In this document: positions 21,638-26,997 of the stretch, piece after piece
Position numbering within the stretch: the stretch's first letter is position 1
Layout: every line of letters starts with the position of its first letter
Origin: Candidatus Gastranaerophilales bacterium
Lineage (GTDB): Bacteria; Cyanobacteriota; Vampirovibrionia; Gastranaerophilales; Gastranaerophilaceae
Assembly: GCA_944326555.1 (NCBI GenBank)
Contig: CALVEK010000001.1
Location: 1-64,000 of the forward strand
Length of the DNA stretch: 64,000 bases
Direction of reading: 5' to 3'
Notes under the pieces: generated by a model
Databases searched by the model: none
What the model saw: the letters and a program-made list of their open reading frames with translations, nothing else
Told to the model about the DNA's origin: nothing
Translations under genes and position numbers: made by a program

Positions 21638-22072
21638 ATGCTTATAAAACAATTTGAACAAGGCAGAACTTTTATGGCAAAGCTGAATCAAAATTCTGAT
21701 TTGCTTGAAGAACTGAACAAAATTTGTATAGATGAAAATATAACAGCGGGAACAATAAACCTGATAGGAGCAATTTCAAGCCTAAAATTGGGTTTTTATG
21801 ATCAGGTTACAAAGCAATATATATACACAACATACGCATACGACGAGCCTATGGAAATCGTTTCTTGTACAGGGAATATTTCTCTAAAAGACGGTAAACC
21901 GTTCTGCCACATACACTTAATCGCAGCAGATAAAAAAGGAAAATGCATAGGCGGACACCTTGTTCAAGGTACATCTGTTTTTGCGGGAGAAGTTTGTATT
22001 CAAGAATTGCTTGGAGAAGACCTGAACAGACAACCTGATAAAGAAACCGGTTTGACTCTTTGGACAGAATAA
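21638..22072 (+). CDS. PPC/DUF296 domain protein
   Basis: This 144-residue protein matches the stand-alone PPC (DUF296) domain: FEQGRTFMAKL near the start, EELNKICIDENITAGTINLI, ISLKDGKPFCHIHLIAAD with the metal-binding HxH, and GGHLVQGTSVFAGEVCIQEL. These form trimers. In plants the domain follows AT-hooks, and bacterial single-domain forms have no settled function. I start at ATG 21638. The open frame extends further upstream over the divergent gene without a better start. It precedes the CDF-CorC gene by 103 bp. Confidence 0.87.
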   Translation: MLIKQFEQGRTFMAKLNQNSDLLEELNKICIDENITAGTINLIGAISSLKLGFYDQVTKQYIYTTYAYDEPMEIVSCTGNISLKDGKPFCHIHLIAADKKGKCIGGHLVQGTSVFAGEVCIQELLGEDLNRQPDKETGLTLWTE

Positions 22073-22175: not shown

Positions 22176-24077
22176 ATGTCATCTGACAGTAATAAATTAG
22201 AAACTATTAAAAACGAAGAAAATACAGAAAATAATATCAACGAAGATAACACTGTTAATACAGAAGAATCTTTTCAGGAAAAAGCAGATAATTCAAAATT
22301 TATGGCCGTAATAAAGGCTTTAATCGCTAATTTAGGAATTGCACTTGTTAAATTAATTTGCTTTTTCTTCTCTTCAAGTTCTGCTATGTTAGCAGAAGCA
22401 ATTCACTCCGGTGTTGATTCTTTCAACAGTATTTGCCTTTTAATAGGTATTAAAAGAGGCTCAAAACCCGCAGATACGGCTCATCCTTTCGGATATGGTT
22501 TAGAAGCCAACATTTGGGCAATGTTTGCTTCCATACTTATGCTGGGTGGTACTTTTGTAGCTATATATCACGGTTTTGAAAAACTTATCCACGCAGAAAA
22601 TGTAAGTGATTTGCTTGTACACTACAACGCAATAGCAATAGCATTGTTATGCAGTATATGCTTTGAAGCGTGGGCAGTTGTCAGCGCATCAAAAGCTGTA
22701 TTGCACGAAGTAGGCATTGAAGAAAAAAATCCCGTAAAAGAATTTTTTAGATCCATAAAATACATTGGACACATAAAAAGCCCAACAACAAAATTTGTTT
22801 GGTACGAAGACACTGCAGCCTTTAGCGGTGTAGTTATAGCTTTTGTTTCTCTTACCATGGCAAAATTTGTTATGCCTGAAAAACTTGCATATATTCCCGA
22901 TGCTATTGCATCTATCATAATCGGTATAATCTTGTTTTTCTTAGCTATTTATTTGCTAAAAAACAACGTTAACAGCCTTACGGTACAATCTGCAGAGCCT
23001 GATGTAGAAGAAAAAATAAGAGAAGTTGCTTCTACAATTCACGGTATTACGGGCGTAATTGAACTTAAGACAATAGACTTAGGTTCTTCAGGATTAATCA
23101 TCAATATGACAATAGAAGTTGACCCCGAAACTCAAATGAAAGATGCTGATGATATTGCAGATATGCTCGAAAGGAAAATTAAAAAAGAGATAAGAAATAT
23201 TACTCACATTACAATTGAGCTGCAAGCACACGATGCAGAAGATAACTGGGAAGAAAAATTTTATAAATTAATTAAAGAAGGCGAAAAAATAGAAACCATA
23301 GATAGCCACGAGGCTACAATGCTGCAAAATTTCTTTGGTTTTGCAAATACCGTTGTAAAAGAAATTATGGTTCCAAGAACTGAAATTTTTATGGTCAATG
23401 CTCAAGAGAATATTAATGCTCTTGCTGATTTAATCATAAGTTCAGGTCATACAAGAATCCCTGTATATAGAGATAACGTTGATAATGTTATAGGCGTGAT
23501 AAACGCAAAAGACGTATTAAAAGTAATTAAAAATAACAATATTGACGAAAATTTCTCAATAGAAACACTGGCAAGAGAACTGTTAATTGTTCCGGAAAAC
23601 AAATTCATCTCAGATTTGCTCAGTGATTTTACCTCTTCAAAAAATCAAATTGCAGCCGTAGTTGATGAACACGGCGGAGTTGCAGGTATTGTTACAATCG
23701 AAGACATCATTGAAGAAATTGTCGGCGAAATTTATGACGAATTTGATAAAGTTGAAACCCCTGAAATTGTGAGAATAGATGACAATACACTGAATGTTTC
23801 TTGCAAAATGGACATTGAAGATATTAACGAAAAATATGACCTTGATATACCAAATGAAGATTTTCAAACAATTGGCGGTTATGTTTTCGGTCTTTTGGGC
23901 AGAGAACCTGAGCTTAATGACGTAATAGAAGATAAAAATATTACTTATACAATACTCGAAATTGACGGAAGAAGAATTTCAAGAATAAAAATGTATAGAG
24001 AAACTCCTTTTGTGGATGTTAAAGAACAAGAAAAATTGATAGAAGAAAATTCAAACAATACTGAAGAAAATTCTTGA
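22176..24077 (+). CDS. CDF-family cation transporter fused to a CBS/CorC_HlyC regulatory module
   Basis: This 633-residue protein joins two domains normally found apart. Residues 1-40 are an acidic Asn/Glu-rich tail. Residues about 42-350 are a cation diffusion facilitator: HxxxD (H77, D81) in TM2, HPFGYG (103-108), an E211-D212 pair in TM5 as in SLC30A9-like CDFs, and a cytoplasmic ferredoxin-like domain. Residues about 375-610 are the CorC/HlyC cytosolic half: KEIMVPRTEIF, two CBS motifs (SGHTRIPVYRDNVDNVIGV; VVDEHGGVAGIVTIEDIIEE) and a C-terminal CorC domain (DFQTIGGYVFGLLG). In CorB/CorC/CNNM this half follows a DUF21 membrane domain, which is missing here. A nucleotide-gated metal exporter is plausible (inference). 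The gene is monocistronic, with a good ATG. Confidence 0.9.
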   Translation: MSSDSNKLETIKNEENTENNINEDNTVNTEESFQEKADNSKFMAVIKALIANLGIALVKLICFFFSSSSAMLAEAIHSGVDSFNSICLLIGIKRGSKPADTAHPFGYGLEANIWAMFASILMLGGTFVAIYHGFEKLIHAENVSDLLVHYNAIAIALLCSICFEAWAVVSASKAVLHEVGIEEKNPVKEFFRSIKYIGHIKSPTTKFVWYEDTAAFSGVVIAFVSLTMAKFVMPEKLAYIPDAIASIIIGIILFFLAIYLLKNNVNSLTVQSAEPDVEEKIREVASTIHGITGVIELKTIDLGSSGLIINMTIEVDPETQMKDADDIADMLERKIKKEIRNITHITIELQAHDAEDNWEEKFYKLIKEGEKIETIDSHEATMLQNFFGFANTVVKEIMVPRTEIFMVNAQENINALADLIISSGHTRIPVYRDNVDNVIGVINAKDVLKVIKNNNIDENFSIETLARELLIVPENKFISDLLSDFTSSKNQIAAVVDEHGGVAGIVTIEDIIEEIVGEIYDEFDKVETPEIVRIDDNTLNVSCKMDIEDINEKYDLDIPNEDFQTIGGYVFGLLGREPELNDVIEDKNITYTILEIDGRRISRIKMYRETPFVDVKEQEKLIEENSNNTEENS

Positions 24078-26187: not shown

Positions 26188-26997
26188 ATGGAATATTTAA
26201 CTTATCTACAAGACAACTTAAAAGACAATCGCCTTGTAAGATGGCCTGAAAGTTGTTTTCCTTTAAAATTTTATATAGCTCCATTCAGATGGTACGCAAG
26301 GAGCGGCAATGACACTTATATTTACCAAGCCCTTGTAAAAAGAGCATTGGATGCTTGGGAAAAAGTCAGTGCAGGTAAAGTCAGATTTAAGGTAGTAAAC
26401 ACATTAAACGAATCTCAAATTAATCTGGATTGGAAAAGAGTAGACAGAAAAGCTCTCGGGCACTGCTATTTTCATTTTGATAATAACAGCAGACTCTACA
26501 GTGCCGAAGTTCAAATCGGCTTGTCTGACGGAATTTTACACCAACAGTATCAGGATGAAAATGAGGTTTACCATACCATATTACACGAAATAGGTCATGC
26601 ACTTGGCTTGGGACACAGTCCATATCAATCGGATATTATGTATACACCACACAAATACGGTGTTGTAAGTGTTTCAAAAAGAGATGCAGCTTCTTTGCAA
26701 TGGTTGTACAAATTGCCTTATGGTATTTCTGTAAGTGAGATGGCACAAAGATATGGAGTTAATTCCTCCAACATAGATGATATTATTTTAAAAGCATCAC
26801 TCTCTGATAAACATAATAGTGCTTTTGAAGAAGTTAAAAACAGTATTAAAATTCCTCAAAAAGATTTGATGAATGAACAAGATAAAATAGCAGAACTGAA
26901 AAAATATAACCTCGGGTTACAAAATATACAGATTTCATCTGATGTACAAGATTATATTAAGAAAAATTTGACGATGAAGAATAAAAAAGACAAATAA
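26188..26997 (+). CDS. Matrixin-like zinc metalloprotease (M10 family)
   Basis: This 269-residue protein has a complete metzincin site HEIGHALGLGH (H133, E134, H137, H143) and a Met-turn at M151 (SDIMYTP). The preceding ALDAWEKVSAGKVRFK and EVQIGLSDG strands are typical of matrixins. Unlike most matrixins it has no signal peptide, propeptide or cysteine switch. The N-terminus begins directly with MEYLTYLQDN. It may act in the cytoplasm or be exported by a non-Sec route. The C-terminal 80 residues are helical and charged. It sits 9 bp after rseP and its stop lies inside a strong terminator. Confidence 0.85.
   Translation: MEYLTYLQDNLKDNRLVRWPESCFPLKFYIAPFRWYARSGNDTYIYQALVKRALDAWEKVSAGKVRFKVVNTLNESQINLDWKRVDRKALGHCYFHFDNNSRLYSAEVQIGLSDGILHQQYQDENEVYHTILHEIGHALGLGHSPYQSDIMYTPHKYGVVSVSKRDAASLQWLYKLPYGISVSEMAQRYGVNSSNIDDIILKASLSDKHNSAFEEVKNSIKIPQKDLMNEQDKIAELKKYNLGLQNIQISSDVQDYIKKNLTMKNKKDK

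Follow-up and report, generated by a model that had tools for sequence, protein, structure and literature searches.

Two families of membrane transporter serve as the closest described points of comparison for the locus reported here. Members of the cation diffusion facilitator (CDF) family export divalent metals by proton coupling. Among them, metal binding to the cytoplasmic C-terminal domain (CTD) controls YiiP, ZitB, CzcD and MamM (PMC10710835). In the CNNM/CorB/CorC family, transport by MtCorB and by the CorC of T. parvatiensis (TpCorC) is activated by ATP-Mg on the CBS pair (PMC10710835, PMC8242095). Given CTD control in CDFs and CBS control in CorB/CorC, both parents of the protein described below are thus regulated from the cytoplasmic side. 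CBS pairs are also found grafted onto other transporters, including MgtE, osmoregulatory ABC importers and some members of the MFS (PMC10710835). In the open-access literature that we searched, we found no description of a CDF joined to CBS or CorC domains.

Here we describe such a joined protein, encoded in a window of 64,000 nucleotides (the whole stretch of DNA that was analysed) from a Candidatus Gastranaerophilales bacterium, a gut-dwelling relative of the cyanobacteria whose genome (G000) comprises 2.08 Mb and is 99.6% complete.

Domain architecture of the fusion protein

Four kinds of Pfam domain were identified in the fusion protein, every one of them exceeding its curated cut-off: Cation_efflux (E 2e-31), ZT_dimer (E 5e-11) lying between the two halves, CBS in two stretches from residue 394 (E 2e-14) and CorC_HlyC (E 2e-19) (Table 1). 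Each of 28 aligned fusions likewise had all four above the respective cut-offs, and Pfam found no DUF21 membrane domain (Pfam CNNM, PF01595) in the 633 residues. Among NCBIfam models, the CDF superfamily spans residues 46-352 above cut-off, and CorC/GldE-type models span about 352-606, below their full-length cut-offs. The nearest PDB sequences are CorC (4hg0) over residues 355-605 and FieF/YiiP over residues 48-175.

The preliminary description of this DNA had read residues about 42-350 as a CDF and about 375-610 as a CBS pair plus CorC domain, in one uninterrupted frame and without DUF21, and had pointed to the motifs HxxxD (H77-D81), HPFGYG and E211-D212. Profile matches above cut-off cover both halves, the frame is open across all 633 codons, and each motif lies where it was placed, HPFGYG occupying residues 103-108. 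This map was right about both halves but overlooked two elements between them, the ZT_dimer domain and an acidic helical bundle of the CorB type.

Table 1. Features of the CDF-CorC fusion gene, in window positions
Feature	Position	Strand	Extent and basis
CDF-CorC fusion gene	22176..24077	+	one uninterrupted frame from an ATG; 633 aa
CDF membrane domain	22296..22985	+	residues about 41-270; PF01545 48-268, AlphaFold2 helices, structure matches
TM2 half of metal site, H77xxxD81	22404..22418	+	conservation in 56 fusions; FieF alignment
TM5 acidic pair E211-D212	22806..22811	+	conservation in 56 fusions; also seen in five unfused CDFs
ZT_dimer cytoplasmic dimerisation domain of CDF	22998..23219	+	residues 275-348; PF16916
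Two-helix linker, equivalent of the CorB acidic helical bundle	23232..23351	+	residues about 353-392; MtCorB alignment, model helices
CBS pair	23352..23750	+	residues about 393-525; PF00571, structure match
H425-T426-R427, ATP-contact equivalents	23448..23456	+	MtCorB alignment; conservation
I505, T507, D510, adenine/ribose-contact equivalents	23688..23705	+	MtCorB alignment; conservation
CorC_HlyC domain	23772..23999	+	residues 533-608; PF03471

The AlphaFold2 monomer (pLDDT 72.9, pTM 0.43) gives no reliable arrangement of the domains relative to one another; it contains six long helices, predicted to be transmembrane, as a CDF should have, an alpha-beta domain resembling ZT_dimer, two linker helices (residues 358-371 and 377-396), a CBS pair and a CorC domain. 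Structure comparison matched model residues 31-357 to chains of YiiP, ZnT3 and ZnT7 (Z about 20), the CBS part to the MtCorB CBS pair with Mg-ATP (7msu; Z 16.5, rmsd 1.7 Å over 112 residues) and the CorC part to CorC domains (Z 14.6, rmsd 1.4-1.5 Å). The sequence match to MtCorB begins at MtCorB residue 167, and residues 359-391 of the window's protein correspond to the acidic helical bundle, which comprises residues 166-199 of MtCorB (PMC8242095). Because the match starts inside the bundle, the helical bundle came along with the CBS-CorC module.

Metal site and putative nucleotide site

The A-site of a CDF is a quartet with two ligands from TM2 and two from TM5, the latter spaced four apart. 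In the CDF half, FieF residues D45 and D49 of TM2 correspond to H77 and D81, neither of which varies among 56 fusions. In TM5, which has no HxxxD, the places of FieF H153 and D157 are taken by W209 and T213; between these two positions lies the acidic pair E211-D212, again invariant in the 56 fusions, giving a putative TM5 half-site that is all-oxygen and free of His. Invariance at both half-sites is retained across a set of fusions whose CDF halves fall to about 42% identity to that of the window. The same combination of HxxxD and ED was found in five unfused CDFs of Proteobacteria and Actinobacteria (28-31% identity), which places the CDF half in a subgroup whose TM5 departs from the usual pattern. 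The correlation between the make-up of this A-site and the metal carried is limited (Barber-Zucker et al., PMC5703985).

The cytoplasmic zinc ligands of FieF, H232, H248, H261 and H283, align with I295, T312, D325 and E348, and the ZT_dimer domain of the fusions has no histidine conserved in 90% of sequences. Since the unfused ED-type CDFs align much like the fusions at these positions, loss of the FieF-type histidines is no evidence that control was handed over.

ATP contacts in MtCorB include F233, S234, R235, I311, T313, D316 and T207 (PMC8242095), whose equivalents by alignment are, in that order, H425, T426, R427, I505, T507, D510 and V399. Across the 56 fusions H425, P429, T507, D510 and E513 are invariant and R427 is present in 55; T or S occupies position 426, one of I, L and M occupies position 505, and every fusion has V or I at position 399. 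The threonine at MtCorB position 207, a ribose contact, is therefore replaced in every fusion, and 5yz2, an E. coli-type CorC chain crystallised with nucleotide, has Ile at the aligned position too. Conservation of the residue equivalents supports an ability of the CBS pair to bind ATP-Mg and the Thr207 equivalent does not, so that the sequence makes binding of ATP-Mg by the fusion likely. The CBS/CorC part as a whole is mostly 33-43% identical to DUF21-CorC proteins of the phylum.

Distribution, genomic context and origin

To assess conservation of the architecture, we examined its distribution among genomes. Full-length fusions were found in 23 of 23 searched genomes of the genus, at 81-90% identity to the window's protein, as well as in other genera of the window's family, in five more families of the order (f2, f3, f4, f5 and f7), in the further genera g39, g42, g45 and g46, and in three families of the class beyond the order (f46, f50 and f51). 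In total, at least 73 genomes of nine families in one class encode the full-length fusion, a figure that tallies full-length matches over three search listings; the two-domain architecture is thus conserved in relatives, which the preliminary description had named as the support to look for. At least 80 named fusion loci come from many assemblies, mostly of Candidatus Gastranaerophilales and many from gut or rumen metagenomes. Only DUF21-CorC-like matches, and no fusion, turned up in family f6, in most of the remaining genera of the family to which the window belongs, and in families f8, f9, f47, f48 and f49. One search across 292 genomes of the phylum returned no full-length fusion beyond the window's family; the fusions elsewhere in the order and class came from other searches. 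A 589-residue candidate in one genome (G080) was rejected, being a DUF21-CorC protein of the usual kind that is extended at its N terminus.

Among 72,556 plasmid records, a single one covered at least 80% of the query in one place. This record, Azospirillum ramasamyi plasmid NZ_CP029834 (L055, 3905-6586), carries two separate genes on one strand, first an ED-type CDF gene and then, after a gap of 400 bases, a DUF21-CorC-like gene. In three other annotated plasmid records the CDF gene had no CNNM neighbour, and we therefore treat the Azospirillum pairing as chance.

The window's genome encodes no DUF21 protein, no CorC_HlyC domain besides that of the fusion and no MgtE; it has one CorA, probably for uptake, and one other CDF. 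This second CDF has an HxxxD motif in TM2 and another in TM5, and it groups, weakly, with FieF. A DUF21-CorC gene apart from the fusion is retained in congeners, G001 and G006 among them, whereas the window's genome is without any. No conserved neighbours of the fusion were found beyond close genera, an HD-GYP response regulator and a PCC gene being present nearby mainly within the genus. No metal-linked operon surrounds the fusion in the neighbourhoods compared, and a scan of 14 fusion loci revealed no metal riboswitch upstream, only tRNAs. With no conserved neighbours, metal-linked operon or riboswitch to confirm a metal role, function has to be deduced from the protein. Two nearby genes are recorded here as observations in their own right. 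A stand-alone PCC (PF03479) domain protein is encoded just upstream on the same strand (21674-22072, +), and a protein with a matrixin-like (Peptidase_M10) metalloprotease domain and the motif HEIGHALGLGH is encoded at 26188-26997 (+), downstream of an M50 site-2 protease gene.

In a tree of the CorC half (28 fused and 25 unfused proteins), all fusions fall into a single clade (100/99), separate from the DUF21-CNNM proteins, with f46, f50 and f51 on one side of the clade and the order on the other. The CorC half accordingly goes back to one old fusion event. A single origin is weakly supported in the tree of the CDF half (72/87), where the outgroups are distant; there, a split supported at 99/99 sets the fusions and the unfused ED-type CDFs together against FieF, ZitB and the second CDF of the genome. 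The distribution among genomes points to a single ancient fusion that was later lost in some lineages, or else to transfer.

Proposed mode of action and comparison with known systems

Because the joined protein has been kept in at least 73 related genomes, we regard it as real and old, and probably as a pump with a built-in switch. Specifically, we infer a homodimeric CDF-type exporter of divalent metal onto which a CBS-CorC module of the CNNM/CorB type has been grafted and whose activity Mg-ATP tunes by binding there, a reading to which we assign a probability of roughly 0.55. It takes up the exporter gated by nucleotide-Mg status that the preliminary description had suggested. The regulatory module (acidic helical bundle, CBS pair and CorC domain) extends the CDF at its cytoplasmic end and, as the C terminus of a CDF is cytoplasmic, would be placed to sense Mg-ATP in the cytoplasm. 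Sitting behind ZT_dimer, it would equip a transporter already dimeric in its function with an ATP-driven dimerising unit. Mg-ATP would close the CBS-pair dimer, and closure may be relayed along the linker helices and then by ZT_dimer to the dimer in the membrane, where it would permit or, less probably, block metal export; licensing of export by Mg-ATP binding is the likeliest role. More tentatively, and with slightly less conviction than the pump-and-switch reading itself, we propose that the CNNM CBS-CorC module is a portable Mg-ATP switch that left DUF21 once, in an ancestor inside this class of relatives of the cyanobacteria, and that now gates a transition-metal exporter by ATP-Mg status.

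The same features could be read in other ways. The CorC domain's own function is unsettled, and CorC of the 4hg0 type, 292 residues long, consists of CBS and CorC parts on their own, with no DUF21; both facts leave room for a structural or docking module that holds the dimer or recruits a partner, any ATP binding being constitutive at cellular ATP levels. The tight coupling of CBS-pair dimerisation to ATP binding in MtCorB (PMC8242095) also fits such a scaffold. However, the nucleotide-contact residues rank with the best-conserved positions anywhere in the protein, beyond what dimer packing alone would need, and both parent families are regulated through cytoplasmic domains, so that we consider a purely structural module less likely. 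Less probable still is replacement of a missing CNNM, in which the fusion would export Mg2+ (or Co2+) through a CDF membrane part under CorB-like feedback by the product at the CBS pair. A genome with CorA that lacks both DUF21 proteins and MgtE would suit this idea, as would a His-free, all-oxygen TM5 half-site, which suits harder ions. Yet many congeners hold a separate DUF21-CorC protein beside the fusion, which argues against simple replacement, the same ED pair occurs in unfused CDFs of other phyla, and we know of no CDF that exports Mg2+.

A join of two neighbouring genes through sequencing or annotation error, against which the preliminary description had advised a check near position 23300, is rejected. 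Nothing was found in its favour: the same in-frame join recurs in many independent assemblies, spanning the 73 genomes of nine families and the 80 or more named loci, and the CorC halves share one common ancestor.

If correct, the reading of the fusion as an exporter tuned by Mg-ATP implies CDF control of an undescribed kind, exerted by nucleotide instead of the transporter's own metal substrate. It also touches on what we read as a question for the CNNM field, namely whether CBS and CorC can act as a regulator on their own or are inseparable from DUF21. A natural graft onto an unrelated transporter fold, kept across several families of one class, parts the module from DUF21 and so makes a direct test possible.

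Both parts, and the principle of a CBS pair on a transporter, were already known; it is the combination of a CDF with a CNNM/CorC module that is new to the literature searched. In fold and domain order, the first 350 residues are like CDF exporters (TC 2.A.4; YiiP/FieF, ZnT), and the TM2 HxxxD is common to the fusion and to CDF exporters with HD-type sites. FieF and ZitB are only about 18-19% identical to the fusion, which has ED in TM5 instead of HxxxD and, compared with CDF exporters, about 280 extra C-terminal residues. Unfused ED-type CDFs (from Azospirillum, Paenarthrobacter, Thioclava, Bradyrhizobium and Nonomuraea) have no CBS or CorC domain. With CNNM/CorB/CorC proteins (MtCorB, T. parvatiensis CorC and E. 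coli CorC), the fusion has in common the helical bundle, the equivalents of the CBS ATP site and CorC_HlyC, but it swaps DUF21 for the unrelated membrane domain of a CDF. MgtE and the ABC and MFS transporters follow the same principle, in that a transporter carries a CBS pair that binds nucleotide; in the fusion, by contrast, what a CDF has received is specifically the CNNM/CorC module, complete with helical bundle and CorC domain.
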